DNA from: a virus
Length of the DNA: 60,509 bases
Strand: one strand, 5' to 3'
IMG/VR virus record: IMGVR_UViG_3300007511_000023
Coordinates: 1-60,509 of that record
Shown here: in pieces, positions 9,811-54,827 of the stretch
Numbering within the stretch: position 1 is the first letter of the stretch
Layout of the letters: each line of letters begins with the position of its first letter
The notes under the pieces: model-generated
What the model was told of the DNA's origin: nothing
The model's database searches: none
What the model saw: only the letters and a program-made list of their open reading frames with translations
Program-made: the position numbers and the translations under genes

Positions 9811-9811
9811 C

Positions 9812-35476: not shown

Positions 35477-36530
35477 TAAGAATATGAGTTCCGCTTTCTC
35501 TTTGAGAGCCCGATGTCTGCAATACAAACCTTCCGTTGTCTCTCAGCTCTTGTGCGTTACGGGCGCCACTATATGAAAAGCCGCTTCGAATATTCTGATG
35601 AATATCCTCGAGAATCGGCTTCACACTGCCTTTGTACGGTATAGTGGTAGCTACCCCCTCAAGCGAGCTAGCAGTGCCTCTCCAAGCCTCCTGAGCCTCT
35701 CTAGACGCCATTCCTCTGTACGCTTTATATGACTTGCCTGCTCCGTTGGTGAACACAGTCCCTGGTGCTTCGGCTGTGCCTGCCAGCATCGAACCCAATA
35801 TAACAAAATCTGCGCCAGCGGCTATAGCCTTCACAATATCTCCAGAGGATCGAATTCCCCCATCTGCGATGATGGGCTTTGGATCAAAGTTATACCTTTC
35901 GGATGAATGAAACGGAGAAATTGCAGCAGTACGTGCCATGTTGCATGCCATGATTGACTGAAATGTACTTAGTCCGTGCCCAGTCTGTATTCTCGTAGAA
36001 CAGATGCTACCTCCTCCAATACCGACGCGGACGGCGTCAGCACCCCAACGGCACAAATCAGCATACCCATCGTCTGTCGCAATATTACCTGCGATGATAG
36101 TTACCGTGTCGCCGAAAGCATCCTTAAGAGTTTTTAGGGCTCTCTCTACGTTCGTATGGTGCCCATGAGCAACATCGATGCATATAATATTTGCACCTGC
36201 ACTGATAAGTTCTCTCGCTCTGATTTCGAAATCAACAGTGACACCAACCGCTGCGGCGATGCTCGTTGCCCCAAACTGCCTGGCAGCCTTCACAATCTTA
36301 GCTTGCTCCGCAACATAATTATATCTATGCAAAATACCGAAGCCTCCTGCAGTTGCAAGAGCCGACATCATATCCAGCTCAGTCACGGTGTCCATCGGAC
36401 TTGAAATAACTGGTAAACTAAAACTTGTACCGTTCAACTCCGCACTTGTATCTATCTCTTTTCTACTCTCGATGTCACTCTTTTGAGGCACCAAGAGAAC
36501 GTCGTCGAACGACAAAGTCTCACTAAACAT
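35466..36530 (-). CDS. guaB: IMP dehydrogenase/GMP reductase family enzyme
   Basis: 354 aa, TIM barrel without the CBS module of bacterial Gua[12 protein letters not shown] start, [20 protein letters not shown], the phosphate loop [17 protein letters not shown] with catalytic Cys177, and [16 protein letters not shown]...PYKG favours IMP dehydrogenase over GMP reductase. It would raise GTP supply (IMP to XMP, NAD-dependent). It lies among nucleotide genes. Confidence 0.85.
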
Positions 36531-38489: not shown

Positions 38490-41400
38490 TTACGCCAACA
38501 TCCTGAAGGTTCTTCCGATGCTTCTTGTCGAGAAGCCCCACTGAGCGTCCCATTGAAGCTTTGCCAAATAAGGGCGATTAACCCTAACCACGTCCTTGCC
38601 TGGGCGAACGCCCCAACACTTGATGGTGTTCGTCTCGCTGTTGCTATCAATGACGCGAATCAGATAATAGTCCTTACCGTTGCGCGTCTTCTTCTTGATA
38701 ACTTCACGGGGCACGAACCACACAACACCAGCAGACAACTGAGGATCGTACTCTGAGATAGGTGGAATATAGTTCTTTTCCAAGCTACTCACAATGTGAT
38801 CAGACAACACCAAGTTAAACGGGAACACTCCAGTTAAGTCAACAAGATATTGAATCTCCTCTTCCTCAGTGAAGTCACCCTCTGGTGCATACTTCGTGAT
38901 GTTCTCTACCAGATGTTTTTCCTTGCGCGGGCGATCAACAGCCACTGCACTCCAAAAGTGCTTCGTACCTTCAAAACGATCGTCGACGAGAGGCTTAAGC
39001 GCACCTGAACGTGCTAGCACGTCAAGAGCCTTCTTGTTTAACTTAGAGTAAACGATGTTCTCGTTGAACAGAAACTCCTCCACCTTGTTGAATGGGCGAT
39101 TGTTGATTATTTGCTCAATAGCCTTTTCGCCCAAACCTTTAATAGATGTCAAAGGCTGAATCAATGTCTTGCCGTCTTCTGATATTTCCCAAACAGAACC
39201 AGACGTGTTAATATTCAACGGCTCGACACTGAACCCGTGTGCCTTCGCCACATTAATAGCCTTCTCCTTTCTTGTTTCAGGCTCCTTGTCGAGGAAAGCT
39301 GCTACCCACTCAGCAGGATAGTAATTCATAAGCCACGCGCACTGAAAAGACAGCACACAATACGATACGGCATGGGACTTGTTAAAGCCATACCCCGAAA
39401 AGTACTCAAAAGTGTCCCAAAGCTCTTTCGCTTGCCACTTCTCAAGTCCCTTCTCCAAGCAGCCATCCAGAAACTTAGAATATATCTTATCCTTCTGCTC
39501 TTGCACTTCGCCTGTGCCCTTCTTTGTCAAAAGCTTACGAAGCTTGTTGCCCTCGTCAAGAGACAAGTCCTTGCCAAGACGGTGAGCCAGCATAGCAATC
39601 TGCTCCTGAAAGATGAGGAAGCCAAATGTCTCCTCTGTCACCTCTCTCACGATGTCATTGACATACTCGACTTCATCGGGAGCGTTCTTTGCTGCAATGA
39701 ACTTCTTGTCCACGCCAGCGCCCAAAGGGCCCGGGCGATAAATTGAAGTGATAGCTGCAAGCTCAATGATGTTGTTGGGTGTTGCCCTCTTACAAAAAGA
39801 CTGTGCTCCGTTTTCAGTAAACTGAAAAATGCCAACCCACTTGCCATCATGAAAGATGTTGTCCCACACCTGCTTATCATCTAAGTCGATGACTTCCGGG
39901 TGCAGACGCCTATCGTAGAAAGCTCTTACGTCTTCAAACGTAGGATTCTCAATTCCCTCATGCCTTTGCAGTATGTGCCGCACGGCACCCTCTATCATCC
40001 TGAGAGAAGCAAGTCCCAAAATATCAAATTTAATAAAACCCATTGGTTCCAGATGTCGTACATTTTGTCCTTCACTCCATGGTGTCTGTCGAACACCTCC
40101 ACTGTTAATCATTGGCATCCACTCGTCTAGGTTCTCACCTATCACGACGCCTCCGGCGTGGCGGCTTGCTGAGCGTACTTGTCCATATAGCGCCTCCACG
40201 TGAGTCTTAATTCTCGGATATTTTACTAAGAATTTTTTCAGCGTATCCGAGAATTCCATGACTTCCTCAAACGTGGGAACATACACTCCTGCCGTGATGC
40301 CATGCTTCTTCTTTGCTAAGGGGGTTGCCTCAAAAAGCATCTTACCTGTAACATTGTTTACCTCGGTGAATGGCACTTCATAGAACTTAGAGATGTCCTT
40401 TATCAATGAGCGCAGCTGCAGGGTGTTCCAGTTTGTAATTGGAACAACCGTGTCATCACCCCACTCATCAATAAGCTCTTCCTTCAAGCTCATTGGAGAA
40501 CTTACATCGTAATCGATATCAGGATAGCCGGAACCACCCTTAGTTAAAAACCTCTCAAACTGTAGTCCATACTTGATTGGATCTACCTGAGTAATACCTA
40601 GAGCATATGAGACTAGTGCACCAGCTGCTGAGCCTCTGCCTGCGCCGACAAGCTGATTCTTTGTTGCCCTATCTGCGATAGCCTTCATGGTGAGAAAGTA
40701 TTTACTGAACCCTCTGCTATCAATAACCTCTATCTCTCTATCGAGTCTGTCAATGTATTCCTGATTGTCTCCGAATCCTAGTATTCTTGCCCCCTCCATA
40801 CAGAGCTTTGCTAAAGCGTCGGTTGCAGTGAGCCCATCTGGTACCACAAAGTCTGGTAAACGCACGGTGTTATCCGGAAAGAAAGACTCAATTCTATCGT
40901 GAGCAATATGGTACGACTCAGTGATGGACTTCATCACCAAGTCATCGTCATACTCGACTCCGCTCTCTTTTGAATACTTCTTATAAGACTCCCACATCTC
41001 ATCTCCGTTTTTCGGATAAAGCTCGTAACCAATCTCTTCAACTTCAATCGGGAGTTCCATACTGAGCCACTCTGGTGAGCCCTTGCCCAGCCAGCCGAGC
41101 CTCTTGTATAACTCTCTATCCTTCCATGCTTCAGAGTTTGGATAGTGACTGTCAGCAGTAGACAGCAGTGGGATACCGAACTCATGGTGCATCTGAATGA
41201 TGTATTGATTCAAGTCATGTTGCTCTGGTACGTTATTCCACTGCAACTCTCCATACCATTTATCACCAAAAATGGACTGCATCTTTTGCGTTGTAGTCCT
41301 CATCGCATCTAAAACAGCGTCTGCTCCGTCCTCTCTGTTCTCCCAGTAATTACCGGCATAAATGCCCCCTAAACAAGCTGATGCAGCGATGACACCTTCA

Positions 41401-41936
41401 CTGTGACGTTTAAGCATTGCGTAATCCACTCTAGGGTATCGATAAAAATGATCACCATCGTAGGATGTCGATATCATCTTAAAAATGTTCTTAAGCCCCT
41501 CCTGGTTTTGAGCTAGCAAAATCAAGTGGCGACGTCTATTCAAGATAGATTTTATTTTCTTTTTAGATTCTTCGTTCTCAACCGTTGTGCCGCTTTGCAC
41601 ATCTTCCTTCTTCTTTCTGGACTTCTTTTCCAGCTTTGACTTTTCATACTCCTCCTTCCAGTTCGCGATTGATGGAATAAAGTACGCCTCACAGCCATAA
41701 ATCGGCTTAAAGCTCTTGCCTTCTGCATGCATCTTTTTAGCATGCAGAACTTGATGCGCCAAGCCGTTTGCATTTCCGTGATCAGTGAGAGCAAGGGCGT
41801 CCATGCCATTCTCATAAGCAAAGTCCATATGTTCTTGAGGGTACCCAAGAGCATCAAAGATGCTGCCTGCCACTGAATGGGCATGTAGCCCAACGAATGG
41901 GATTTCGGGCTTGTTTCTAGTCTCTGATGTCGGCAA
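38490..41936 (-). CDS. dnaE: DNA polymerase III alpha subunit (DnaE)
   Basis: 1148 aa, full length. PHP domain with H18-x-H20 and TDHGN (His53), palm with catalytic PDIDYD (Asp473, 475, 477) and the third Asp in IKFDILGLASL, fingers, and an OB-fold segment near the C-terminus (KDYYLIRVIDSN). It is a C-family polymerase, unusual beside the A-family enzyme of this phage. No clamp or clamp loader gene is recognised here. Confidence 0.95.
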   Translation of the reverse strand: MPTSETRNKPEIPFVGLHAHSVAGSIFDALGYPQEHMDFAYENGMDALALTDHGNANGLAHQVLHAKKMHAEGKSFKPIYGCEAYFIPSIANWKEEYEKSKLEKKSRKKKEDVQSGTTVENEESKKKIKSILNRRRHLILLAQNQEGLKNIFKMISTSYDGDHFYRYPRVDYAMLKRHSEGVIAASACLGGIYAGNYWENREDGADAVLDAMRTTTQKMQSIFGDKWYGELQWNNVPEQHDLNQYIIQMHHEFGIPLLSTADSHYPNSEAWKDRELYKRLGWLGKGSPEWLSMELPIEVEEIGYELYPKNGDEMWESYKKYSKESGVEYDDDLVMKSITESYHIAHDRIESFFPDNTVRLPDFVVPDGLTATDALAKLCMEGARILGFGDNQEYIDRLDREIEVIDSRGFSKYFLTMKAIADRATKNQLVGAGRGSAAGALVSYALGITQVDPIKYGLQFERFLTKGGSGYPDIDYDVSSPMSLKEELIDEWGDDTVVPITNWNTLQLRSLIKDISKFYEVPFTEVNNVTGKMLFEATPLAKKKHGITAGVYVPTFEEVMEFSDTLKKFLVKYPRIKTHVEALYGQVRSASRHAGGVVIGENLDEWMPMINSGGVRQTPWSEGQNVRHLEPMGFIKFDILGLASLRMIEGAVRHILQRHEGIENPTFEDVRAFYDRRLHPEVIDLDDKQVWDNIFHDGKWVGIFQFTENGAQSFCKRATPNNIIELAAITSIYRPGPLGAGVDKKFIAAKNAPDEVEYVNDIVREVTEETFGFLIFQEQIAMLAHRLGKDLSLDEGNKLRKLLTKKGTGEVQEQKDKIYSKFLDGCLEKGLEKWQAKELWDTFEYFSGYGFNKSHAVSYCVLSFQCAWLMNYYPAEWVAAFLDKEPETRKEKAINVAKAHGFSVEPLNINTSGSVWEISEDGKTLIQPLTSIKGLGEKAIEQIINNRPFNKVEEFLFNENIVYSKLNKKALDVLARSGALKPLVDDRFEGTKHFWSAVAVDRPRKEKHLVENITKYAPEGDFTEEEEIQYLVDLTGVFPFNLVLSDHIVSSLEKNYIPPISEYDPQLSAGVVWFVPREVIKKKTRNGKDYYLIRVIDSNSETNTIKCWGVRPGKDVVRVNRPYLAKLQWDAQWGFSTRSIGRTFRMLA

Positions 41937-42144
41937 TTACATTCTCCAGTTCAGCCATAATAGCGGTTAATTCTTCTACCAGATCCACCCCGTTTGAGAG
42001 AGGATCCGGTAATCTTGCCATGTTGTAAATTTCTTGAAAAAGAAACTGTCTATCATGAGAAAGACTTTCAAAGGTGTAAGCCACACCTGCAGAGTCCTTA
42101 ATATGATACGGAATTTCGTCGTATAAATCTCTAATCTCTTTCAT
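41917..42144 (-). CDS. Small helical protein, unknown
   Basis: 75 aa from the ATG at 42144 (GGGAG 6 nt upstream). MKEIRDLYDEIPYHIKDS and acidic helices. It overlaps both neighbours and precedes dnaE. Confidence 0.55.
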   Translation of the reverse strand: MKEIRDLYDEIPYHIKDSAGVAYTFESLSHDRQFLFQEIYNMARLPDPLSNGVDLVEELTAIMAELENVIADIRD

Positions 42145-43018
42145 CTCGTTCTCCCTTGAATAAAATTTTACTGTACTCATGATGTTTAAACATCTTCTCT
42201 CCAGGGTGCCTCAACTCTCGAAACTCTTCTGATGCTACATAAGCCGCATACTTTTGCCACGTTTCGATGTCGTAGTGCCAATCCAGTTCGATGACATTTG
42301 ATTCTTCTATTCTAGCACAATTATAAATTTCGTCAAGTAAAAAATGCTTCGAACTCCATCTTTTTTCATGATTGATGGTAGTGTCCCCTCCACTACATTT
42401 ATTCTTCATGTTCCACAAGTATTCGTTATATTCTTTAGCATTCATCGTAAACGACAAATGCAAGCCCTCTCGAACTGTCTTACCCTCATACGATAGAAAG
42501 AAAGGCTTTGTGGAGGATATCTCTCTCCTGTATCCCGCAACCACTGAAGGATCATGTATGCCATACGGGAAAGAGACAAAGTACCTACTGGGGCGGAGCC
42601 ATTTGCTAATTTTGTCAGACACAATAAAAGCTGTTAGTGCACCATGAAGCGCACTAAACCCGTAACTATCCCTTCGGTTTCTGTCTTTTGGGTGGATTGG
42701 CGTATAGAATATCGGTATCTGTCTCCTGTGTTCCGAGGGGTATTTCACATACGTGTGCTTGTTGAGCCAATACGGATCTTCTATATAGTCCCCCAGCCTT
42801 TTCTTGAGCAGCGGCTGAATGTCGTCATTACAAACCAACCATATCGTTTCACAGCCGGCGTACGCACATTCAACTATAGCCCTCTCAACCGCTAAGTACC
42901 GCTCACCCACCACTTGCATTGAACTGTGCCACGGTAGCCCATAATCAACTCTCGAATTTGCAATAGGCACAACGCCGGCAAGATGAAAGTTGTTTTTAAG
43001 ATTGCTTCCCGTCTCCAA
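42131..43018 (-). CDS. Nucleotidyltransferase-like phage protein
   Basis: 295 aa. FHLAGVVPIANSRVDYGLPW, ERAIVECAYAGCETIWLVC, NDDIQPLLKKRLG resemble the N-terminal Rossmann part of GT-A nucleotidyltransferases, a family present in cyanophages (my recollection). The target is unknown. It could act on sugar nucleotides or DNA. Confidence 0.6.
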   Translation of the reverse strand: METGSNLKNNFHLAGVVPIANSRVDYGLPWHSSMQVVGERYLAVERAIVECAYAGCETIWLVCNDDIQPLLKKRLGDYIEDPYWLNKHTYVKYPSEHRRQIPIFYTPIHPKDRNRRDSYGFSALHGALTAFIVSDKISKWLRPSRYFVSFPYGIHDPSVVAGYRREISSTKPFFLSYEGKTVREGLHLSFTMNAKEYNEYLWNMKNKCSGGDTTINHEKRWSSKHFLLDEIYNCARIEESNVIELDWHYDIETWQKYAAYVASEEFRELRHPGEKMFKHHEYSKILFKGERDERD

Positions 43019-43331
43019 CGTCTACCTCTTCCAAAAACACTCTTGCAGTGTATCCCCCCGCATACTTTCTCTTCCTCACCGCAAGCTCAAACAAATCTCT
43101 CAGTGGAATCTCAGAGTATGCTAACAGCGCCACAATAACTTCGTATACATCTACCAGCTCTTCAATACTGGGATCCTCTACGAACTCTTGCGCCTCTTCA
43201 AGCAGCTTTTCCTTTAAAAGCTCCAAATATTTTTCATCCTCTTCAATAATCTTGAATTTACAAAATCTTCCGTCCCTATCTATAAGCCCTGGTACCTTAT
43301 CTCTTACCAACTTGTTACATGTCTCCATCAT
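42996..43331 (-). CDS. MazG-like pyrophosphohydrolase
   Basis: 111 aa. NKLVRDKVPGLID at the start and LLEEAQEFVEDPSIEELVDVYEVI: the phosphoribosyl-ATP pyrophosphohydrolase/MazG pattern of acidic metal ligands. It would hydrolyse nucleoside triphosphates. Marine phages often carry such genes. Confidence 0.8.
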   Translation of the reverse strand: MMETCNKLVRDKVPGLIDRDGRFCKFKIIEEDEKYLELLKEKLLEEAQEFVEDPSIEELVDVYEVIVALLAYSEIPLRDLFELAVRKRKYAGGYTARVFLEEVDVGDGKQS

Positions 43332-44113
43332 GCCCCTCTTTCTGATGATGTCATAATCTCAATATATTTATTCCCTTTAAATTGCAGCTTACTTATGGAA
43401 AATTTCTCTCTCCGTGTCGGCTCGAGCTTTATCGATAAAAACTTTTGTTTTCCAGCTATCGTCGTGCCATCTTTTGCTCCCCTTATCCCACTATTCTTCA
43501 TGAGTTTCTCAACTTTAAATCTAGCGATAGTAGGAGAAGCATCAAAATCGTTCATTTCTTCGCTAGTCATGAAAGATTCAGAAACACAATCTTTAATATT
43601 CTTGTTTCCGTCCACCCTTTCAGATTTATAAAAATACACTTTGTTAACAAAAGGCTCTGAAGTTTTCAGCACATCAATTTCGTGTTTTGCTCCACTTCTT
43701 ACGTTGAACCAATCAAATACCCTGTACTTCTCTCCCTCTTCACCAGAGGACTCCTCCATGGTTACATTCTCGTTGTCGAACATAAAACACTTTTTGAAAC
43801 TAGCATGAACACTGAACGCTCCGCCCAAAGAGACAAACATCTTATCCTTTTCGAACCTTATGCTGTCTATTGATGTACCAAACGGCACCAAGCCTGCCAT
43901 GGCATGCTCCAGAACCATAAACGACCAAGCAGTCTCGGCATTAGTCGTCTTAAGCTGCAGCTCGGGAATCTCAATCTCCTCTACCTCGTCAAACGGGAAA
44001 GGCTTCTTTCTCGTATTTAATATTAATGGAATTTTGTTTTCATAAGCATGCTTCACAGCTGAGAGGCTGTGTCCAACTACAACTTCTTGAAAATCATATT
44101 TATGATTTCTCAC
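43328..44113 (-). CDS. Unknown phage protein
   Basis: 261 aa, GTG at 44113 in a GTGA overlap with the lipoprotein gene. FQEVVVGHSLSAVKHAYENK at the N-terminus resembles a Rossmann-type loop, and the rest is beta-rich. I recall related proteins in cyanophages without function. Coupled to MazG. Confidence 0.55.
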   Translation of the reverse strand: MRNHKYDFQEVVVGHSLSAVKHAYENKIPLILNTRKKPFPFDEVEEIEIPELQLKTTNAETAWSFMVLEHAMAGLVPFGTSIDSIRFEKDKMFVSLGGAFSVHASFKKCFMFDNENVTMEESSGEEGEKYRVFDWFNVRSGAKHEIDVLKTSEPFVNKVYFYKSERVDGNKNIKDCVSESFMTSEEMNDFDASPTIARFKVEKLMKNSGIRGAKDGTTIAGKQKFLSIKLEPTRREKFSISKLQFKGNKYIEIMTSSERGA

Positions 44114-45366
44114 CTACATGCTCCTGAAACTATTGTCATAAGATTTTCATACATGCTGTCCGAGTCGCTTGTTAAATCAAAGTTTCTCCCGCCAGTGCTT
44201 ACTGCCAATTCATCCCAGCCATAAAAAGCAAGAGCAAAAGTGTACATCTTCAACCCCTCTGTAGAAACTAGTGCGGGGCCGACGGCGTGTATCGTATTTG
44301 GGGGATTCATATATGTCCTCTCGGGCTCATCCGAGAATACTACTATAATCTTATCAGCACCCTCTCTCCAATTTATAAAGAACTCAGATAATACTGGGGA
44401 AGATACCGCACCAGATGTCCACCTAGACATATTCAAATCGTTTGTCAACATAGGACTAATATTTCTCAATGCAATATATACTGCATCGAGAAGCATCTCC
44501 AGTCCTCCAACGTGAAGCCTATCAACTTCAAGAAACCTATTCAAAAAATCATTAAAAGGAGAAATGTCAGAAACCAAGCGAAGCATTTCGTAATTATCTC
44601 TTGGATTCTCTTGATCAAGCACCCTTATTGGGCCGACTATTAAACCCCACTGGATAACCTCTTCATCTGCAAACTCGCGAGAAAACCTTTGCAAGGCTTC
44701 TATCGTCGCACCTACTCTCACTCCCATAGAGCTAGACCAGTCGACTACGAATAGAATGTCAGTATTCCGTATGCCTTCGCCAAAGTCCACAACACCATCA
44801 CAGTCATTGTCGACGCCGTCACACACCTCAATAGAAGGAATCACCTCGCCTGGGCACAAGTCCTCTACCCAAATATCATTCTCAAAGTTACCCCACGTGC
44901 CATGCATGCAAATTTGTTCTCCAGCCAGGCAGTTTCCAACACCAGCGGTTTTAACTGGGCCCGAATAGCAATTGCGGGCAATAGTTTCGTCAACGATCCC
45001 GTCGCAGTCGTCGTCGATATTGTTGCATGCTTCCTCAAAAACCTGCGGAGCAGAACACTCCACAAGGCTGCCCGAGATGCACCGTGAGACACCGGGGCCA
45101 CAAGCGGTGTCGCAGTTATATGCTCCTTCGTCAATATTCCCATCACAGTCATTATCAATGCCGTCGCACTGCTCTGTAGTGCATAGCTGTGTTGCTGCAT
45201 CAATGATTTCGGCAATGGCGTCAATGGTAGGCACCGGTATGATAATTGAATCCACAGGCGGCAGAGCGACGTCGCGCACTTTGCCATCGATATCGTGGAG
45301 CGCTGGTGGCGCCGCATCATCAACGCAGGAAACAAGCAATATTAACAATAAAAGTAACTTTCTCAT
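44110..45366 (-). CDS. VWA lipoprotein with MopE-type repeats
   Basis: 418 aa. Lipobox LLVSC (Cys14), a linker, three CDGxDNDCDGxxDE-type units (about 70-85, 108-123, 185-200; PF11617-like, calcium or copper binding), then a VWA domain with MIDAS DWSSS near residue 210. It should be anchored on the periplasmic or outer face. Translation is coupled to the next gene. Such proteins are typical of Myxococcota; in a phage they suggest host transfer. Confidence 0.85.
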   Translation of the reverse strand: MRKLLLLLILLVSCVDDAAPPALHDIDGKVRDVALPPVDSIIIPVPTIDAIAEIIDAATQLCTTEQCDGIDNDCDGNIDEGAYNCDTACGPGVSRCISGSLVECSAPQVFEEACNNIDDDCDGIVDETIARNCYSGPVKTAGVGNCLAGEQICMHGTWGNFENDIWVEDLCPGEVIPSIEVCDGVDNDCDGVVDFGEGIRNTDILFVVDWSSSMGVRVGATIEALQRFSREFADEEVIQWGLIVGPIRVLDQENPRDNYEMLRLVSDISPFNDFLNRFLEVDRLHVGGLEMLLDAVYIALRNISPMLTNDLNMSRWTSGAVSSPVLSEFFINWREGADKIIVVFSDEPERTYMNPPNTIHAVGPALVSTEGLKMYTFALAFYGWDELAVSTGGRNFDLTSDSDSMYENLMTIVSGACR

Positions 45367-45367
45367 T

Positions 45368-47620
45368 TTAAAAACACATCCGGGAAAGACGCCAGCTCAT
45401 AGCCACCGTATAAAACTTCTCGCCACATGATGGAGCTTCTTTTTTTTTTGATTCGAAACATGCCATGCCCGAATCAGCGCCACCAGCATCGGGCTCTGCG
45501 TCGGGAGGCATAGCGTCAGGTACGCCGGCATCTCGGACTCCTGCGTCTTGGACGCCAGCATCCGCATCGGGCTGCCTCTCACGGCCCTGAATACAGGCAG
45601 CTTCTTCTATAGCTTCCGCGACGGCATCTTCAACTTCTTGTTCGTTTTGCCCTGGTGGGCCGCCGACGTTGGCATTCCTATACGCTCCACCGGCGTCAAA
45701 CAACGGCTCATAACTTTGGCGTACAAAAATGTTGTCGGGCCCGATGATGAATGCCATACCACCAGTCATGAACATTGCATGCTGAACCGCGAAGGCATCA
45801 AAGTTATCGCCTTGCGCTCTCTCATCACCTAGCACGACGACGATACGATGGTTATACCTGCTCAAGTCAACCTGCCAGGCATCTTCGATTCCTTGAAGCT
45901 GGGCTTGTGGGCGGTTTGTATTCCAAAGCACTTCATCTGGATTCCCGTCGTTATCCCAATCGATGAGATCGTCGGTGAGAAACATGCCTATTGCGTCAAG
46001 AGTATTCTCTGTGCCGCCGCCGCGATTAATGATTCCGGCATTAATTGATCCTCGAAGTCCGCTGATTGCAGCCCGCATGTCTTCCACTGGAACGACTGGA
46101 GGATCCTCAACACCTGGTACGCAGTTATCTGCTGGATAATATAGGTACGGGTCGAACATGTCGTCATTCCCCACCACAGCTAGCATGTAACATACATCGA
46201 TGATGCCGTCGTTAAAGAGTCTTTCGACGGTATTTCTAGTCGCGTCAAAAGCTGCCCACAACTCATCTTGTTGCATTGAGCCGGAAACGTCAATAACCAT
46301 CATGACTGCCACCATGCCCTGCTCGAAGTCTTCATCGATATCGCCATCACAGTCATCGTCTTCTTCGTTGCATCTTTCGACACCAGGGCGGATTTCTTGT
46401 AAACACTCAAGGTATCCATACTCAAGCTCGCCCTGGGCGTCGCGGCGCGACTCACAGAACGCAGCGCCCAGGCGACAATCTCCTGCTACGTAATTTGGGC
46501 CGTCCTCCCTTCTTTCATAAAGAATTACTTCTCCATTAGGCATGTCTGTTGAGCAGAGCTTTGTCAAAGGCCCACCGTCGGGCCCTTCGTCAATAAAGCC
46601 ATCACAATCTTCGTCGATGCCATTGCAGATTTCAGACTGGGGTACATAATCCGGATGATCGCAATCGCATGCGCCTGGTTCGAAGTCTTCATCAATCGCA
46701 CCGTCACAGTCGTTGTCTTCGAAGTCACACAACTCCCTCGGCAGCTCGCCGCAATCGCCGCATGCGTTCAAAAGAAGCTCATCAATAGAGCCGTCGCAGT
46801 CGTTGTCGAGCCCGTCACACTCCTCAACAGGATCATCGCCGCACTCGCCGCAAACGTTTAATAGGTTTTCGTCAACACTCTCGTCACAATCATTGTCAAT
46901 GCCGTCGCACACCTCAATTGGGTCCTCTCCGCACTGGTTGCAAATATTTAGAACACCTTCGTCAACACCGTTGTCACAGTCATTATCCAACGAATCACAC
47001 TCCTCTGCAGACGGCACTACCTGGTTTTCACACTCTCCGTAACCATAATGCATTTCGACACCAGCATCAGTTGTAATGGAAAGTTCTTTACAGATAGATA
47101 TGCCAGGGCGGCATACGCCGTTCTTTGAAGATCCTGGACGTCCCTCGTAACAGCTCCTAAACAAAGTAGGAGATTGAGCACCAGCACCCAATTGCTGGGG
47201 AGACTCGTTCAAAGCCCCGTCGCAGTCGTTGTCCAGCTCATCGCAGACTTCCATTCTAGGAAAGTTTACTTGAGTACACTGTGTCCAAATAGTTGACTGA
47301 CAAATCCTTTCCCCTTCCCCACATGGCCCAGTGAGGTTGGGTAGCGCACAAGCCTCGCGGGCTCCGAACCTTTCGCATACTATTGGTGGCGGAGCAGCGT
47401 CGATGACAGCATCCACAACTGGACGGGCATCGATGATTCTCACATACATATCCAGTTCAGGCTCAGGCTCAGCATCCACTATTCTTAAACGCGCGTCGGA
47501 AACATTACCGCTACCGAACGTATTTCCGCTATCTCCAATCCTGCCCTTTTCAGGCTCGCTTACAGCGTCTTCACACGCTAGCAAAGACATAGCCATCAAT
47601 AAAAATAAAAAGTTCTTCAT
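45368..47620 (-). CDS. Large VWA lipoprotein with seven MopE-type repeats
   Basis: 750 aa from MKNFLFLLMAMSLLAC at 47620 (GGAGAAGTA upstream); the frame to 47719 is rejected. Lipobox Cys16. Seven C-x-x-x-D-x-D-C-D-x-x-x-(D/N)-E units between about 150 and 440, then a VWA domain with MIDAS DVSGS near residue 448 and an Asp/Ala-rich tail. Its start shares bases with the ThyX stop (TAATG), and the second VWA gene follows by 2 nt. Role unknown: adhesion, metal binding or surface modification. Confidence 0.85.
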   Translation of the reverse strand: MKNFLFLLMAMSLLACEDAVSEPEKGRIGDSGNTFGSGNVSDARLRIVDAEPEPELDMYVRIIDARPVVDAVIDAAPPPIVCERFGAREACALPNLTGPCGEGERICQSTIWTQCTQVNFPRMEVCDELDNDCDGALNESPQQLGAGAQSPTLFRSCYEGRPGSSKNGVCRPGISICKELSITTDAGVEMHYGYGECENQVVPSAEECDSLDNDCDNGVDEGVLNICNQCGEDPIEVCDGIDNDCDESVDENLLNVCGECGDDPVEECDGLDNDCDGSIDELLLNACGDCGELPRELCDFEDNDCDGAIDEDFEPGACDCDHPDYVPQSEICNGIDEDCDGFIDEGPDGGPLTKLCSTDMPNGEVILYERREDGPNYVAGDCRLGAAFCESRRDAQGELEYGYLECLQEIRPGVERCNEEDDDCDGDIDEDFEQGMVAVMMVIDVSGSMQQDELWAAFDATRNTVERLFNDGIIDVCYMLAVVGNDDMFDPYLYYPADNCVPGVEDPPVVPVEDMRAAISGLRGSINAGIINRGGGTENTLDAIGMFLTDDLIDWDNDGNPDEVLWNTNRPQAQLQGIEDAWQVDLSRYNHRIVVVLGDERAQGDNFDAFAVQHAMFMTGGMAFIIGPDNIFVRQSYEPLFDAGGAYRNANVGGPPGQNEQEVEDAVAEAIEEAACIQGRERQPDADAGVQDAGVRDAGVPDAMPPDAEPDAGGADSGMACFESKKKEAPSCGEKFYTVAMSWRLSRMCF

Positions 47621-48333
47621 TACTTCTCCGTATGTGTTTCCTTGTATGCCTTTACAGACTCTGGGAAAAATTTTCCCGCGATGTCTAGGCAAGCGCTTGC
47701 GACTCTCTGTATCTCCCACTGGGCACCGGAGTGTGATCGTAAACTAATAAATTTCAATAAATTGTGGAGATTTACTGTCCCATAATACTGAGTATACAAG
47801 TTCTGAGGCAATACACCCCTTGCTTGTTCTCTGCAAACTCCCGCGTTCAAGAGTTCCTCATAAAGCTTTAGGCTGCTAGTGTGATGATCCAATATTGCAT
47901 CAGATGCCAAATATACACTAGGCGGGTATAAACCATTCCCGCCAGAAGTGCTAATGTTGGGATTGATTAGTTCATCGTTGCTAGCCTGTCTATTTGACTC
48001 GTGCTGAGTTCTGAACTCCTTTGGTTCATAAAAGTCCATATCAATAGAAGTATATCTTCTGCTAATTTCATTGTACGCCCAAGTTCGATGTCTGTGATGT
48101 TGACTCCTTATGAACAGGGGCACTGTAAACCTCATCGTTACAGCGCAATGCTCAAAAGGACTAGTGTGGTTGTGCTTCATCAAATAATTGATGAGCTTCA
48201 CGTCCTTGCCATCTAGTTCTTCCTTGTTTGTACCAAAAGATACTCTTGCGGCGTTTACCACCGATAAGTCACTGCCCATGTGGGATATATACTCTACGGC
48301 GCCGATGGCGTCGTCAAACAGTTCAATTCTCAT
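47620..48333 (-). CDS. thyX: Flavin-dependent thymidylate synthase (ThyX)
   Basis: 237 aa. Signature HRHRTWAYNEISRRYTS (the RHRx7S motif) at about residues 80-96, and SPFEHCAVTMRF before it. It makes dTMP from dUMP using FAD and NADPH. It overlaps the GroES-like gene by ATGA and couples to the VWA gene downstream. Confidence 0.95.
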   Translation of the reverse strand: MRIELFDDAIGAVEYISHMGSDLSVVNAARVSFGTNKEELDGKDVKLINYLMKHNHTSPFEHCAVTMRFTVPLFIRSQHHRHRTWAYNEISRRYTSIDMDFYEPKEFRTQHESNRQASNDELINPNISTSGGNGLYPPSVYLASDAILDHHTSSLKLYEELLNAGVCREQARGVLPQNLYTQYYGTVNLHNLLKFISLRSHSGAQWEIQRVASACLDIAGKFFPESVKAYKETHTEK

Positions 48334-48644
48334 TCAATCCCTCGCAGTAAGCCTACAACATAATTTTCCAAAATAAGATGATTAGTCTTATCTTGCACAC
48401 TCACCTCTTCTATCATCGACATGTCGACGACGATAGTCTTTTCAGCGAAAGTCCCCCTCCGAAGCTTTTGAAAAGGCTCAGCACAATCTTGTGCGACATC
48501 CACAACAGTCGCAGTGATGTATCTATCTTCTCGCGGCTTATAATCTTCTGGTAAAAGAATTCCGCTTTCGTTTGGCTCCTCTCTCTTAAAGTGAGGAACA
48601 ATCAGCAGATGCCGGTTAACTGGCTTAAGAGAGGGAGAAATCAT
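48330..48644 (-). CDS. GroES-like co-chaperonin
   Basis: 104 aa. LKPVNRHLLIVPHFKREEPN, ESGILLPEDY, ITATVVDVAQDC, KTIVVDMSMIEEV, LILENYVVGLL: the GroES barrel with the mobile loop at about residues 20-30. I recall this form in marine T4-like phages. It would cap GroEL, possibly the phage's own. Confidence 0.8.
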   Translation of the reverse strand: MISPSLKPVNRHLLIVPHFKREEPNESGILLPEDYKPREDRYITATVVDVAQDCAEPFQKLRRGTFAEKTIVVDMSMIEEVSVQDKTNHLILENYVVGLLRGIE

Positions 48645-48937
48645 TAGTTTACCTCTACAGTCTTCTTGACGTGCTGGTAGAAATCCAGCAATTGCTCAAT
48701 ATCCGTATTATTCTTCATCATTCGATAAGCTTTCACAGCCATCGAAATCTCCTCTTTGCTAAGCCATCCATTTTCGATAAAGTTAGTCTTGAGATCTCGC
48801 TTAGACTCCTTATATGGCTCCATTGCGTCTTCAATCGCCGCCATGTTTTTAATGTAGCTTGTGATATGGACTTCTTTTTGTTCCACACTCATCGTAGTTG
48901 TTTCGTCGTTACTCACAATAGACAAATTCGCACCCAT
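48644..48937 (-). CDS. Small helical phage protein
   Basis: 97 aa. HITSYIKNMAAIEDAMEPYK, ENGWLSKEEISMAVKAYRMM: helical, a pattern common in marine phages with an unclear role. First gene behind the promoter at 48974-49002; TAATG overlap to the GroES-like gene. Confidence 0.6.
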   Translation of the reverse strand: MGANLSIVSNDETTTMSVEQKEVHITSYIKNMAAIEDAMEPYKESKRDLKTNFIENGWLSKEEISMAVKAYRMMKNNTDIEQLLDFYQHVKKTVEVN

Positions 48938-48973
48938 GTTAAAACTCCTTTAACTGTTTTATTTTGTAATATT

Positions 48974-49002
48974 ATATTAACACTAATTTAGATAAAAATC
49001 AA
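48974..49002 (-). promoter_or_regulatory. Sigma70-type promoter
   Basis: TTGATT, 17 nt, TAATAT. The stop of the upstream gene (48999-49001) lies inside the -35. It probably drives the GroES/ThyX operon. Confidence 0.62.
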
Positions 49003-49625
49003 GTGTTTTTTAAAACTTTCTTAGCAATTGCCTTAACTGCCATTCTTTCGTTTCTAGAAAGCTTCTTATATGTTTCGAGCCCTTCGCCGAACGTGAAGGG
49101 ACGGTTTCTAACCTTTGTCATAAATTCTTTTTCTCTTCCGAAGTCGCGCTCTCCGACTTCTATCTTGTTTCCATAACCAGGAAACTCCGAATTGTTGGTG
49201 CCTATCAGGTAAGCTCCCTTTGCTCCTTTCGGAATTATCAAAACAGAATCCTGGCAGTATTTTTCTCCCAAAGTTGTTATAGAGTTTGCAAAGCTAGGAT
49301 CCTCTTCAAGGTTTACCACAAACATGCTGTCCTCGCTAACCTCAAAAGCCTCCGGAGTGTTAAAATTCTCAATGTATGATCCTTTTGCTTTTGTAACTCC
49401 GTAACCCAAAGACAACAGTGCTGCCTTTAAATCACGATTGCGTGAAAGATTTGTGTCCTCTTCCCCTGGCGTGTCTGAACGCTCTGTGCACTTAGAAAAG
49501 TCCTTTATATCGCCTCGAAAAGCCGTTATAACTGCTGTTTCTCGCTCTTCCATGTGCTTGTGAACCCTAGATAGAGAAGATTCAGAAATGAACTTTCTCC
49601 ATATGCCTATAACCTCTTCCATCAT
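48999..49625 (-). CDS. DUF3293-like phage protein
   Basis: 208 aa. VITAFRGDIKDFSKC, NRDLKAALLSLGYGVTKAKG, FVVNLEEDP match the DUF3293 pattern (A-F-R ... N-x-x-L-x-x-x-L-x-x-x-G-Y). The second half has EFPGYGNKIEVGERDFG and FMTKVRNRPFTF, known to me from phage proteins. Function unknown. Confidence 0.62.
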   Translation of the reverse strand: MMEEVIGIWRKFISESSLSRVHKHMEERETAVITAFRGDIKDFSKCTERSDTPGEEDTNLSRNRDLKAALLSLGYGVTKAKGSYIENFNTPEAFEVSEDSMFVVNLEEDPSFANSITTLGEKYCQDSVLIIPKGAKGAYLIGTNNSEFPGYGNKIEVGERDFGREKEFMTKVRNRPFTFGEGLETYKKLSRNERMAVKAIAKKVLKNT

Positions 49626-49626
49626 A

Positions 49627-49926
49627 TCACTTAATTCCTTCTAATTCAAGATATTCCTTTATTTTTGATAACGTGTCTAATTCCCTCTCGATATCGATAT
49701 GACGAATCTTGTCAATTCGATAATTCGTCTTGTAGATATCTGAGTTGTCGTTTCTTAACTTGTTTGTGTTCTCTGTTGCCATCTCATATGGTTTATCATT
49801 GAACCACTTAACCCTAGCGTAAGTCCACGGGACAGTCAAGCCTTCGTCTCTTTCCTCGAGGGACGTTACTACACCGTATCTTCTAATTCCATGCCACTCG
49901 TTATACACCACTTCGCCAATATTCAT
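49627..49926 (-). CDS. SH3-like protein (NIGEVVYN type)
   Basis: 99 aa. MNIGEVVYNEWHGIRRYGVV, YARVKWFND, then a helical tail. The most distant recognisable relative of the KVGDLV family, far from the array. Confidence 0.6.
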   Translation of the reverse strand: MNIGEVVYNEWHGIRRYGVVTSLEERDEGLTVPWTYARVKWFNDKPYEMATENTNKLRNDNSDIYKTNYRIDKIRHIDIERELDTLSKIKEYLELEGIK

Positions 49927-50474
49927 AAACTCTCTCTTTCTATTCTTGTTGCTTCTATATTATCAAACCAAACAACAATATCTTTTGTTCCTTGGTTTAT
50001 TCGGTAATAGACACCCTTATATCTCTTCGCATCTTCATCCCTTATCGGGGTAAAGTATTCTGGATAGAGTCCAGGCTTATCCTCTTTCGCAAGAGACTTC
50101 AAAACTTTGTCCAAATTGGGCACCACCATTCCTGATGCTTTTTTCGACTTATGTAGTAAATCTTCCGGATCTTCAACCAAATCATATATGTCAGAAGCTG
50201 GAACCTTAACAGAGTAAAGGTTGTTTTTCGAACCTGCCACAACAGTTTCTAAATGTGATGGATCTAAATAAAAGAACACTCTTGGAAAAGAAGAAACATT
50301 ATAGTCATTTTTACTATAAGACATTCTTGCGCTTCGAAACTTTTCCGGGTCTAATGGTATTACATCCATGTCTCTACCTGAAAAACGAAACAGCTCTATC
50401 TCCCCTGCTTCAATATACTTCTCTATCTCCTCTTTGAGTAAGAACTTTTGCCAGTTGTTGTGTATTGTATCCAT
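49923..50474 (-). CDS. Conserved phage protein
   Basis: 183 aa. NNWQKFLLKEEIEK, EIELFRFSGRDMDVIPLDPE, RVFFYLDPS, SDIYDLVEDPEDL: recalls a protein class in cyanophages with a possible ADP-ribosyltransferase-like fold. Not confirmed. Confidence 0.55.
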   Translation of the reverse strand: MDTIHNNWQKFLLKEEIEKYIEAGEIELFRFSGRDMDVIPLDPEKFRSARMSYSKNDYNVSSFPRVFFYLDPSHLETVVAGSKNNLYSVKVPASDIYDLVEDPEDLLHKSKKASGMVVPNLDKVLKSLAKEDKPGLYPEYFTPIRDEDAKRYKGVYYRINQGTKDIVVWFDNIEATRIERESL

Positions 50475-50487
50475 ACTATAATTACCT

Positions 50488-52356
50488 CTAAAGAAACTTT
50501 ATTTCGCAACTTCCGCCGGCGCATGCTGCTTCGCCAGCCAAATCCGTATTATCTTCTTCTTCTGTTATTTTTGTTAAGTCGACTCCACTGAGGGACGCCA
50601 TCAGAGCGTCGTAACGTTCCACTGAGCAATCTTCGAACGGAGCCTGCTTATAGTTGCCCCCATCATAAGGAAGGACAGAAAGCCCAGTGTATGACTCTCT
50701 GTTTTCCCACATCCACTCTCCAACGTCTGTCCATTCAGAATCCTTAAGAGAAATAGTCGCCGAAACATTGTGATTGTTCGGTCCTCTGCCGCCGCCGGGA
50801 AAAACCCAGTTTTCCGTAACACGCTTTACCCTCTTAAGCAATTGCAGAGCAGACTCTGCTCTAAGGATAGCCCCCTCTGGGGCTTTTTGCGGGACGGAGA
50901 TGACTGCAGTATCGTGAGGACGAAAGTATTCGTCTTCCACCAGCTCTGGGTGACTTCTAGCCAAAAATGAATATATAGGCTCGTTCTTTCCCACGCGGAT
51001 TCTCCTGATGTAATAATCGTTATGCCAGGCGTGAATACCGCTCGATGTTCCAAGCACTAACGATGTTGTACCTGCCGGTTTTACACACGTAGTTCTAGCA
51101 GCTGGAGATATTTCAATGAGCTTCGCCACTCTGACATTCTCCTTCTTTACCACAGCTGCCGCAGCCTTCATGTCAAGCTCCAAGACAGTTCCAGATGCGA
51201 TGCCAGTCATGCTGACGCCCAATAAGGCGTCCTTATCTGTGTTAACCTGCCACACGGGGCGTAAATAGTGAAAGTCAGTATACCCAGCTTGCAATGTTCC
51301 GATGAAAGAGGCAACTCGAGCACGCTCTTCAAAATCTTTCTGATTTTCTATCTCGCTAACGTTAATTTCTGTCAAGTTACAAAACTGGCAAGATCTCAGA
51401 GATATCTCATGGCACGGATTAAATCCTCTTTCTTTGTCATTCGTAAAAGAGAATCCTGGTTCGCCAGCGCCGGAGGCTTGAATTCTCTCCCACAGGCTCA
51501 TGAAGGTTTCTTTTGTTATTCTATGTCGCAGAATAACCACCGAATTGTTAGCCCTGCCTCTTTGCGGATTCTTCTCCCACCAGTTTCCAGTCTTAGCAGC
51601 TATCATCTCACTATCGTCTGCTGAAAATAAGGATATCATTGCTGCTCTGCGAATTCCACCTGCAAGAACTGCATCCGCCACATGACACATGATATCATGC
51701 GCCTCAATGGGCTCGAGCTTTTGTCCGTTTTCCTTGTTTTCTAAAATTCCCTTAATTTTCAGCAAACACTCCTTGAGAGGCTGTGGGCCGGGGGCTTTGC
51801 CTCCAGAAGTAACAAGCCTCTCCCCTTTCTGCCTGATATCCCCGTAGTCAAAGCGAACATGACTACTCCTATAACCATAGTAGGTTTCCATCAAAACCTT
51901 TACGGCGTCGGCCCAGCCTTCAATACTGTCTTGAATGAGATACCGGTACGTTCTACTTGAAGTTGGCTTTCTAATCTCTGGCAACTTCTCTATGTGATGC
52001 TTTTGTACAGAAAATCCGACTCCGGTGCCGCCGAGTAGCAAGAACATCGCCTCACTAAAAGCTCGATAATCGTCTAACGCGACAAAAGCACAGTTGAAAA
52101 TTCTTGAAGGGTTAATCTCTATTGGCTTGCCACCAAACTGCATTGAACGCATAGATGGAAGAACTTTCTTATCATAAACCAACTTGTATGCCTTGCGAAT
52201 CTGAAGTTCTAAGCCCGGATACTTTTTAAGGTGCATATTCATATTCCTAGTCACCAATTCATTCCAAGTCTCTCTTCTGTTTTCTTTAGGCAAAAACCTT
52301 GCATATTTCATATGCACAGTAATGTCGGATAAAATTTCATTAGATAGCTCTTTCAT
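50488..52356 (-). CDS. nrdJ: Class II (B12-dependent) ribonucleotide reductase
   Basis: 622 aa. NPSRIFNCAF, MFLLLGGTGVGFSVQ, NPCHEISL with catalytic Cys, TTCVKPAGTTSLVLG and the C-terminal CAGGSCE redox pair, typical of the monomeric adenosylcobalamin-dependent enzyme (RTPR type). It makes deoxyribonucleotides for replication and needs cobalamin from the host. Upstream gene is the helicase. Confidence 0.92.
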   Translation of the reverse strand: MKELSNEILSDITVHMKYARFLPKENRRETWNELVTRNMNMHLKKYPGLELQIRKAYKLVYDKKVLPSMRSMQFGGKPIEINPSRIFNCAFVALDDYRAFSEAMFLLLGGTGVGFSVQKHHIEKLPEIRKPTSSRTYRYLIQDSIEGWADAVKVLMETYYGYRSSHVRFDYGDIRQKGERLVTSGGKAPGPQPLKECLLKIKGILENKENGQKLEPIEAHDIMCHVADAVLAGGIRRAAMISLFSADDSEMIAAKTGNWWEKNPQRGRANNSVVILRHRITKETFMSLWERIQASGAGEPGFSFTNDKERGFNPCHEISLRSCQFCNLTEINVSEIENQKDFEERARVASFIGTLQAGYTDFHYLRPVWQVNTDKDALLGVSMTGIASGTVLELDMKAAAAVVKKENVRVAKLIEISPAARTTCVKPAGTTSLVLGTSSGIHAWHNDYYIRRIRVGKNEPIYSFLARSHPELVEDEYFRPHDTAVISVPQKAPEGAILRAESALQLLKRVKRVTENWVFPGGGRGPNNHNVSATISLKDSEWTDVGEWMWENRESYTGLSVLPYDGGNYKQAPFEDCSVERYDALMASLSGVDLTKITEEEDNTDLAGEAACAGGSCEIKFL

Positions 52357-52359
52357 TTC

Positions 52360-53733
52360 TCACGTTCCCCCTTTTTTAAAGTCCTTATATTTCTCTTTCA
52401 ACAATTCCATCTGGTGTTTCGCTGCTTTTTCCACAATATCATTTACTGTCTCATCTGTAGGTGGTAAAACCTTGATTTTTACGTTACTAGTGTCCATAAA
52501 TATTGGATGTATAATTCCATCTGGACCGTTCCTGTTTTTTGCTACAAAAATCCTACCACCGTTAGTGCCCTTATCTTTAATCGTTCTCGAAACAGTAAAT
52601 ATAAAATCAGCAACGAAGCATTTATTAAATGCTTCGGAGATTGACTCCATAGTTATAACTTCGGCGTTAAGTCCGGATCGATTGGTTTGGGAAGCTGTCC
52701 AAATGGGGCACTCATAAATCTGCGCTAAACCTCGTAACTCTTCATAAATAGTTTCCAGCTGATGTCTTTTCTCATCTTTTGATGAAGAAGCTGGTTTTAT
52801 TAAATCTCCGTAATCTACGATTATTAAATCAGGCTCGAAGCCTCTAAGTTTCATCTTTTCTAAGTGATTTTTTATCGTTTGAATGGACGCTGAGCGGGTT
52901 GGATACTCCTTTACTATCAGTTTTCCTTCAATTTCTTGAATCTCCTCGTACACCTTCTCTTTAAATGCTCTCAAGTCTGACAATCCAATGCCAGTGATAG
53001 CACTGTCGTATCTGTTTGCCACAACTGTGTCCGCCAACTCCAAAGTATAGTGGATAACGTTCTTTCCCTGTTTGAGAGCTTGGGCTCCGAGATGCACAAG
53101 AACCATACTCTTTCCGGCGCCGGTGGGAGCAATGACGACTCCAAGTTCGCCTTTGCCCAGTCCACCCTTTGTGATTTCATCCAATTCTTTCCATCCGAAA
53201 GAGACTGGATTTCTTACCTTCAGCTCGAAACGCTTCTCGAAATCCAGAAAGTAATCATATCCAAAGTTATTATCGCTTCCAAGCTTAATAGCATCATTGA
53301 TAACCTTGCTTATCTCTTCAAAGGACGAACGCTTAATCAGGCTTACCGACTTGATCATGGCTTCCTTCAACTTCTGCTTTCTACAAAAGTCAAGAGCCTG
53401 ATCCTTAATATACTCTGAGCCCTCTACCTCAAGACGAGTTGAGATGACTCTAGTGTAGTAATCCCTAATGCGAATGCGAATAGGTTCGGACTCCTCTTTG
53501 AGTTCCGTACGCAAAAGAGACAACATAATTTTTTGTGTTGGCTGGACATTGTACTTGTCCCTGTAGTTTCGAATGAGCCCAACAAACGTTCGGAGGTATT
53601 TAAGCTCTAAAAAATTTGTGTCGAACACTTCGAACATCTGATCTGCAAAAGGACGATCCGTCAGCATTAGCTGACACAAGTCCTCTTGAAACGACTTCCC
53701 GAATTTGGAAAAGTCTTCCCGCTCATTTTTCAT
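52360..53733 (-). CDS. Replicative DNA helicase (DnaB/gp41-like)
   Basis: 457 aa. N-terminal helical domain, then a RecA-type motor with Walker A APTGAGKSM, HYTLELADTVVANRYDS, Walker B LIIVDYGDLIKP and an Arg-finger region NRSGLNAE. It unwinds DNA 5'-3' at the fork. No primase is seen in the window. Promoter at 53758-53786. Confidence 0.9.
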   Translation of the reverse strand: MKNEREDFSKFGKSFQEDLCQLMLTDRPFADQMFEVFDTNFLELKYLRTFVGLIRNYRDKYNVQPTQKIMLSLLRTELKEESEPIRIRIRDYYTRVISTRLEVEGSEYIKDQALDFCRKQKLKEAMIKSVSLIKRSSFEEISKVINDAIKLGSDNNFGYDYFLDFEKRFELKVRNPVSFGWKELDEITKGGLGKGELGVVIAPTGAGKSMVLVHLGAQALKQGKNVIHYTLELADTVVANRYDSAITGIGLSDLRAFKEKVYEEIQEIEGKLIVKEYPTRSASIQTIKNHLEKMKLRGFEPDLIIVDYGDLIKPASSSKDEKRHQLETIYEELRGLAQIYECPIWTASQTNRSGLNAEVITMESISEAFNKCFVADFIFTVSRTIKDKGTNGGRIFVAKNRNGPDGIIHPIFMDTSNVKIKVLPPTDETVNDIVEKAAKHQMELLKEKYKDFKKGGT

Positions 53734-53757
53734 GATTTTTCCTTAATTGAATGTCTT

Positions 53758-53786
53758 ATTCTAACTTATATCGCAGAAAAAATCAA
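53758..53786 (-). promoter_or_regulatory. Sigma70-type promoter
   Basis: TTGATT, 17 nt, TAGAAT. The TGA of the nuclease gene (53783-53785) lies in the -35. Confidence 0.6.
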
Positions 53787-54748
53787 GCACTTTTTCTGTA
53801 ATCTGACACAAACCTGTTAAACGCTACAAACAAGTCTGTTAAAGATACTTCCCCTATTCCATCCTTGTGCATCTCTGCTCTCAAGCCGCTCTTATTAAAC
53901 TCTGGTTCAAAACCCTCCATCACCTCTCTAATCCTGTTGTGCGTCTGCACAGGCAAAGAAGGGGAGTAAAGCTGCATTAGCTTGTAGTTCTGCTCAATGA
54001 GCTTCCGCTCTGCCACTACGGAGTGGTGCACCTTTAGGGGCGACTCTTGCTCTTGACAAGTCTCAACCAAATCATTCAAGTAGTAAGTCTTCCCTTCGGA
54101 AAGGAAGGGAAACCTCTTTGCAACAGTGCCTAAACCGACACCCTTAAGTCCAGCGAGGTTATCACTAGAATCCCCAACAATAGCTCTCGCAAGAGCGAAA
54201 TTAGTTGGATGAATGCCATACTCTTCAATTACCGCTTTCTTGTTCAACACTTGCTTTTGAGTGGGGCGATACAATATCGTCTTATCATCCAGTAGCTGAA
54301 TAAAGTCTTTGTCAGACGACACGATTACCTTCTGGTGTTCCTGCATCGATGGATGTTGCACTATCGCTGCAATGACATCATCCGCTTCAACATGAGGTTC
54401 CAAAAACTGAATCACAGGCGTTTGATTCAGGTACTCCAGTACTCTGACTTGCTGCCATGTTTTGTTTTCTTCCTCTTCCTGTTCCGTCATGTTACGGATA
54501 TCACGGTTTAGGCGCAAAGGCTTCCTGCCTGCCTTGTAATTCTTATTAACTGTCTTTCTTCGCGCGGATCCACCTTCGCCGTCCCACACAACAAAAATCT
54601 TGTCTGGTTTAATCTCTCTTGTCAGTTTGTTGAGGATTTTAAGAAATCCCTTCGAGCCGCCGATGGGCTGTCCATTCGACGACATGCTTGGATCAACTAT
54701 GTACGATCTCAAAAACTGGTTTAATGCATCTACTACCATTATTCTCAT
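53783..54748 (-). CDS. 5'-3' exonuclease / FEN-type nuclease
   Basis: 321 aa. MVVDALNQFLRSYI, IFVVWDGEGGSARR, VEADDVIAAI, IVSSDKDFIQLL, IVGDSSDNLAGLKGVGLGTV: the acidic metal sites and H3TH loop of the T4 RNase H/PolI-exonuclease family. It removes primers and processes flaps. It precedes the helicase. Confidence 0.93.
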   Translation of the reverse strand: MRIMVVDALNQFLRSYIVDPSMSSNGQPIGGSKGFLKILNKLTREIKPDKIFVVWDGEGGSARRKTVNKNYKAGRKPLRLNRDIRNMTEQEEEENKTWQQVRVLEYLNQTPVIQFLEPHVEADDVIAAIVQHPSMQEHQKVIVSSDKDFIQLLDDKTILYRPTQKQVLNKKAVIEEYGIHPTNFALARAIVGDSSDNLAGLKGVGLGTVAKRFPFLSEGKTYYLNDLVETCQEQESPLKVHHSVVAERKLIEQNYKLMQLYSPSLPVQTHNRIREVMEGFEPEFNKSGLRAEMHKDGIGEVSLTDLFVAFNRFVSDYRKSA

Positions 54749-54756
54749 ATTTATAC

Positions 54757-54798
54757 TCCTAAAATAAAACCACCTCTGGTAGAATACCAGAGGTGGTT
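54757..54798 (-). terminator. Rho-independent terminator overlapping a promoter
   Basis: A perfect 14-bp stem (AACCACCTCTGGTA/TACCAGAGGTGGTT) with a 3-nt loop, followed by TTTTATTTT. It should end the UvsX transcript. The left arm also forms the spacer of the promoter at 54781-54809. Confidence 0.85.
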
Positions 54799-54809
54799 GA
54801 AAAAGTCAA
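54781..54809 (-). promoter_or_regulatory. Promoter embedded in the terminator hairpin
   Basis: TTGACT, 17 nt, TATTCT; the -10 is inside the hairpin loop region. It would drive the nuclease gene at 53783. Confidence 0.6.
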
Positions 54810-54827
54810 GAACTTTGAGCGGGATTA

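Follow-up and report, generated by a model that had tools for sequence, protein, structure and literature searches.

VWA/MopE-repeat lipoproteins of uncultured phages: a family of candidate adhesins of the infected-cell envelope

Two adjacent genes in the DNA of an uncultured virus encode predicted exported lipoproteins, in each of which a stalk of MopE-type repeats is followed by a C-terminal VWA domain. These VWA/MopE lipoproteins constitute a phage family of its own, which is new to the libraries searched here. As a tentative explanation, held at somewhat less than even confidence, we propose that they are phage-encoded, lipid-anchored adhesins in the outer envelope of the infected host and that their purpose is superinfection exclusion. 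The window, i.e., the whole stretch of DNA analysed, is the entire IMG/VR record IMGVR_UViG_3300007511_000023 of 60,509 bases.

Locus and assembly

The genes of the locus, from the outer edge towards DnaE, are as follows:

48330..48644, minus strand: GroES-like gene, which bounds the slot on its outer side (PHROG 3188, E 3.4e-5; Pfam Cpn10 sub-threshold)
47620..48333, minus strand: ThyX, upstream neighbour of VWA1 (PF02511, E 1.4e-49)
45368..47620, minus strand: VWA1, lipoprotein of 750 aa, seven MopE-type repeats and then a C-terminal VWA domain
44110..45366, minus strand: VWA2, lipoprotein of 418 aa, three MopE-type repeats and then a C-terminal VWA domain
43328..44113, minus strand: g261, 261 aa, downstream of VWA2 (no Pfam or PHROG match; syntenic in relatives)
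42131..43018, minus strand: g295, conserved, between g261 and DnaE (no Pfam match)

A preliminary description of this DNA had placed two adjacent, coupled ORFs between ThyX and the 261-aa gene, and both ORFs, their order and their coupling are real. VWA1 starts with an ATG at 47620 that has one base in common with the ThyX stop (TAATG), and VWA2 and g261 overlap by GTGA (44110-44113), both as described; the spacer between VWA1 and VWA2, previously given as 2 nt, is 1 nt (45367). SD-like motifs are found upstream of VWA1 and g261, and VWA2 has none, which fits translational coupling. Both lipoprotein genes are co-directional with the replication genes. The name "MazG-linked" for g261 found no backing in a Pfam search, which returned nothing at E≤0.01 for this gene and likewise nothing for the 111-aa MazG-like gene. 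g261 and g295 are two conserved genes between the slot and DnaE, and in a gene-by-gene comparison the divergence of g261 equals that of the lipoproteins.

Contig IMGVR_UViG_3300008952_000030 shares 16,093 identical bases with the window (40786-56878), and this stretch spans both junctions, at 44.1 and 47.6 kb, at which a chimeric join had been feared; no such join is present. In a 158-kb contig the gene order is kept, with 82% protein identity for VWA1 and 72% for VWA2. A chimera or bacterial contamination, for which no supporting evidence was found, is ruled out by the 16,093-base exact match and by the same order in independent contigs.

Other features of the phage were observed in passing. 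The ORF at 48999-49625 (minus strand; MMEEVIGIWRKFISE...) and many related loci (e.g., L092, L079, L019 and L188) carry an N-terminal W..[FY][LIM].E motif, which occurs within the first 35 residues of 49 of 3979 ORFs (redundant loci) vs 0 of 3047 for residues 61-95; the ORFs bearing it are otherwise unrelated. The motif resembles a targeting tag common to these ORFs, which may direct their products to the capsid; capsid-targeting tags have a parallel in T4. In addition, putative DnaK-, GroEL-, FKBP- and IMP-dehydrogenase-like proteins, named from sequence, are encoded at 23717-25597, 30037-31614, 22202-22639 and 35466-36530, respectively.

Export signals and repeat stalk

The domains of both proteins, all on the minus strand, are distributed as follows:

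47573..47620, minus strand: VWA1 signal peptide with lipobox LLAC, Cys16 (by pattern; Cys invariant across 16 diverse aligned proteins)
46331..47245, minus strand: VWA1 MopE-type repeat stalk, residues 126-430, seven motif copies (PF11617, E 9.2e-22)
45590..46321, minus strand: VWA1 VWA-like head with DVSGS (profile comparison with the VWA2 head)
45325..45366, minus strand: VWA2 signal peptide with lipobox LVSC, Cys14 (by pattern)
44782..45168, minus strand: VWA2 MopE-type repeat region, residues 67-195, three motif copies (PF11617, E 1.9e-12)
44113..44766, minus strand: VWA2 VWA head with DWSSS (AlphaFold2 model, pLDDT 90.3; best Z 16.9)

The proposal that these are secreted VWA/MopE-repeat proteins is supported by a signal peptide, a lipobox, the PF11617 family and, for the VWA2 model, a VWA fold. 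Both proteins carry the N-terminal signal peptide with lipobox cysteine of bacterial lipoproteins, as called by pattern rather than by a dedicated predictor. Among the homologues, a lipobox is recognisable in 81 non-redundant proteins and lacking in seven ORFs, at least five of which seem to be truncated, either by the end of the contig or at the start of the ORF. In the 81 proteins the +3 residue is Asp or Glu in 77%, and the commonest +2 residue is Ser (31/81), acidic residues amounting to 16% at this position (Glu in 11/81). In E. coli, the sorting of lipoproteins to the outer membrane is governed by a +2 rule, under which a mostly serine and seldom acidic +2 position favours the outer membrane. 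The lipoproteins are therefore predicted to be sorted there, to the extent that the rule of E. coli, which may not be that of the host, applies.

The repeats score over the curated cut-off of PF11617 (Cu-binding_MopE; 27 bits) in both VWA1 (77.4 bits) and VWA2 (47.6 bits). The stalk that they form is rich in Cys and Asp, and its length differs among homologues.

The VWA head

The VWA assignment, which had also been proposed from the sequence, is sub-threshold in Pfam and stands by structure for the VWA2 head. The gathering scores were reached neither by VWA2 for VWA (PF00092, 18.0 bits vs 23.8, E 0.0037) nor by VWA1 for VWA_2 (PF13519, 15.3 bits vs 27, E 0.031), and the fold was therefore tested by structure. 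The VWA2 head, modelled with AlphaFold on an alignment with 11 relatives, matches TFIIH p44 with a Z of 16.9 (172 residues, rmsd 2.6) and integrin beta heads with Z of 15-16, and its top Foldseek match is integrin beta-8. Sequence identity in these structural matches is about 10-19%, and a sequence-profile search of PDB chains also places integrin beta-8 first, at a non-significant E of 0.021. The model thus predicts that the VWA2 head adopts the alpha/beta VWA/I-domain fold. A comparison of profiles shows the VWA1 head to be homologous to it (94.7% probability, E 6e-8), and VWA1 and VWA2 are paralogues; the VWA1 head model itself (pLDDT 49) is unusable and was excluded from the fold search.

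A complete MIDAS consists of DxSxS, a Thr or Glu of loop 2 and an Asp of loop 3. The DxSxS motif is found in both proteins, and the residues invariant between the VWA2 head and its 11 relatives are D9, S11, S13, E90, D146 and E147 (domain numbering), such that DxSxS, one E and DE are candidate metal-site residues.

Distribution among viruses and cellular genomes

In searches of known phages, tblastn against 50,697 phage records gave no match at E≤1e-3 for VWA1 and none at E≤1 for VWA2, PHROGs gave none for either at E≤0.01, and nothing on phage VWA/MopE-repeat lipoproteins, or on Myxococcota lipoproteins with a metal-binding motif, was found among the open-licence PMC papers listed, as judged by their titles and the opening of their abstracts. 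Among viral contigs, the full-length proteins as queries detected 14 and 11 loci, and a scan with the head alignment yielded 133 confirmed loci, of which 80 were kept. The same ceiling of 80 applied to a further scan, in which 203 loci were confirmed. The 80 loci kept from the scan with the head alignment and earlier hits form 87 protein clusters at 95%, derived from 118 ORFs of loci L002-L106, L187 and L188; they take in both paralogues where present, two MAG loci and truncated ORFs.

Long records were searched whole, 24 of the 32 having been selected for carrying the protein and the other eight by DnaE; a VWA2-type head was matched in 26 of the 32 and PF11617 in 27, while 14 control genomes had no PF11617. 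Three of the eight records selected by DnaE have the gene, in one case as a VWA1-type copy in the slot and in two cases at other places; the other five show none. The earlier view that such repeats are not of phages is thus wrong. Most long carriers, which reach 280 kb, have a gp23 capsid of the T4 type: of 25 virus records, 23 contain this family, and no member was found in either of two MAGs searched alongside. The lipoprotein gene is usually single-copy per record. The 267-kb record of L086, however, has PF11617 repeats in three long frames that are separate from one another, and in two of these the profile also detects a VWA head. Given the kind of sample from which such IMG/VR records come, the carrier phages are presumably marine.

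Cellular genomes were probed with the single usable peptide pattern, which gave 14 matches in the genome collection, two of them confirmed and both on MAG contigs. One contig lies in a Gammaproteobacteria bin; read piecewise, its genes mark it in our view as phage, so that it is weak evidence of a host at best. The other measures 7.1 kb and belongs to a Halieaceae bin. When 398 genomes of the phylum of the first MAG (G033, itself included) were searched with a profile of the family (A2) at E≤1e-8, only the phage contig of the Gammaproteobacteria bin matched. SD-like motifs precede 21 of 24 window genes, which argues against hosts that make no use of SD sequences, such as Bacteroidota.

Genomic context and neighbouring genes

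The slot was defined as the interval from GroES/ThyX to g261, and contexts were assigned by a proximity rule. Among the 87 clusters, 45 lie in the slot, five beside g397/g283, five near a glutaredoxin-like/g147 group and 32 elsewhere. A set of 80 loci seeded with DnaE includes 28 that do not extend across the slot; of the roughly 52 that do, seven carry a lipoprotein there by our reading. A slot that is often empty, together with the other contexts, indicates that the gene is accessory and relocates. The suggested locking into the operon holds insofar as the genes are coupled within a phage nucleotide/replication operon; the link is not essential, because only seven of about 52 slots carry the gene and other phages have it elsewhere.

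The neighbours of some copies bear on a rather unlikely alternative, in which the lipoprotein is an accessory of lysis that, with exported peptidoglycan or protein hydrolases, breaches the outer envelope when infection ends. At 15 loci, a member of a PF01464 transglycosylase family stands no more than 1.5 kb upstream in the same orientation, mostly at a distance of 60 nt or less; such pairs are found both in the DnaE slot and in other contexts, and these loci represent 11 of the 87 clusters. The first proximity rule had given 5+4 such cases, which was too low, and the 15 were obtained after the distance was relaxed; L062 also has the family, outside the rule, and the match at L019 is weak (E 7.7e-8). 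However, the transglycosylase also occurs in eight DnaE-seeded loci without the lipoprotein there, and the link is hence suggestive only. A small exported zinc-peptidase-like gene with an HExxH-like motif follows on the same strand within 26 nt at five loci and is found within 1.5 kb at eight (family c33; L020, L040, L066, L082, L084, L085, L095, L097), once on the opposite strand; its assignment rests on the motif, Pfam SprT-like matching one member at E 0.037 and another not at all. Upstream at three loci (L064, L078, L079) stands a small exported Cys-rich lipoprotein (c131), which would also suit a role in lysis. Most clusters, including that of the window, have neither the transglycosylase nor the zinc-peptidase-like neighbour, and a VWA head would bind rather than degrade.

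Selection and promoter scans

Both genes are under purifying selection, with a pN/pS against the 158-kb contig of 0.20 for VWA2 and 0.13 for VWA1 at near-saturated synonymous sites. VWA2 is the fastest-changing of 12 genes compared. Against the closest relative (L002), conservation is higher in the head than in the stalk, both for VWA2 (81% vs 62%) and for VWA1 (91% vs 81%); against L007, this still applies to VWA2, and head and stalk of VWA1 are equal (0.62 each).

A T4-like late promoter motif was found upstream of 1/47 slot copies, 2/37 other copies and 44/1422 in the background, a scan that is uninformative because the motif is also absent upstream of the control ORFs of gp23 loci. A sigma70-like promoter score did not distinguish lipoprotein copies (n=23) from other genes (n=401; p 0.71). 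Neither scan is informative as to the timing of expression.

Proposed function

In the favoured explanation, an adhesin of the outer envelope, the infected host would export the protein (Sec), lipidate it via signal peptidase II and sort it to the outer membrane. There, Ca2+ and disulfides would stiffen the MopE-repeat stalk, and the VWA head would bind a conserved ligand of the host envelope through a metal ion. The phage receptor would thereby be occupied or distorted, such that the infected cell and its debris cease to take up further virions; masking of the receptor would most likely be the benefit. The co-directionality with replication genes makes expression before lysis plausible. In favour of this explanation are the invariant lipobox Cys and the residues that follow it, the predicted VWA fold, the better conserved head against L002, purifying selection and the precedent of T5 Llp. 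Several findings count against the superinfection-excluding adhesin: some copies adjoin a transglycosylase or zinc-peptidase-like gene, which would equally suit envelope degradation; many related phages have no gene at the slot, and five of the eight long records selected by DnaE show none; against L007 the VWA1 head is no better conserved than its stalk; and Llp is much smaller than these proteins. The idea that the proteins alter the host surface remains plausible, with the anatomy and conservation of the predicted VWA/MopE lipoproteins established and their sorting, ligand and action at the surface conjectural. A role as virion adhesin, also suggested, is unlikely for a lipoprotein with a signal peptide.

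The same anatomy, the predicted integrin-like fold and the variable stalk length would also suit an adhesin that changes the stickiness of infected cells towards each other, particles or neighbouring cells, and so lets progeny meet new hosts. We regard this as unlikely; it depends on exposure at the outer face, which is putative. Binding or scavenging of a metal (Cu or Ca), as the name of PF11617 implies, is improbable: both proteins exceed the cut-off of the family, and MopE of Methylococcus does bind copper, but its high-affinity site is described as two His and a kynurenine formed from Trp130 and, in that account, not named as acidic repeats (PMC3423442), and the VWA head would be left unexplained.

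Comparison with known systems

By description, the nearest functional parallel is Llp of phage T5, an outer-membrane lipoprotein that blocks a receptor (PMC9586334). The likeness is in working only, as a phage-encoded outer-membrane lipoprotein acting on the host envelope. Llp, a small periplasmic protein, binds the plug of FhuA, and the passages describing it mention no VWA domain or MopE repeats (PMC9586334). The VWA/MopE proteins, in contrast, have about 400-800 aa, and we do not count them as members of its family. With MopE of Methylococcus capsulatus, which according to the same account as above is protected from proteolysis by calcium (PMC3423442), the proteins share the PF11617 repeat family and export; unlike MopE, they have a lipobox and a VWA head. 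The VWA/I-domain fold with DxSxS is common to integrin beta-I and alpha-I domains and the heavy chains of inter-alpha-inhibitor, but at the low identity given above and in the context of a phage lipoprotein no membership among integrin I domains is claimed.

VWA domains are also found in CobT-type proteins of tailed viruses, which are described as pairing with the AAA+ protein CobS in cobaltochelatase (PMC8651126); in contrast to these, VWA1 and VWA2 are predicted exported lipoproteins. At 8280-10888 of the window, an ATPase gene (PHROG 1297; more weakly PHROG 249, porphyrin biosynthesis) adjoins a gene of PHROG 1314, a pair that is possibly, as a guess, CobS/CobT-like.

Implications

To our knowledge, the phage lipoproteins known to alter the envelope are small. 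Here, a putative adhesin that is large and bears its VWA head on a stalk of repeats is encoded by many large viral contigs and has escaped both PHROGs and tblastn of phage records. It is conceivable, though we would not yet wager on it, that a large group of uncultured gp23 phages share a relocating, selected, integrin-like and metal-stiffened outer-membrane lipoprotein that remodels the infected surface and is phage-specific, the cellular genomes searched having yielded no close source. If true, this would reveal an unexamined route by which lytic phages control the surface of the cells they infect.
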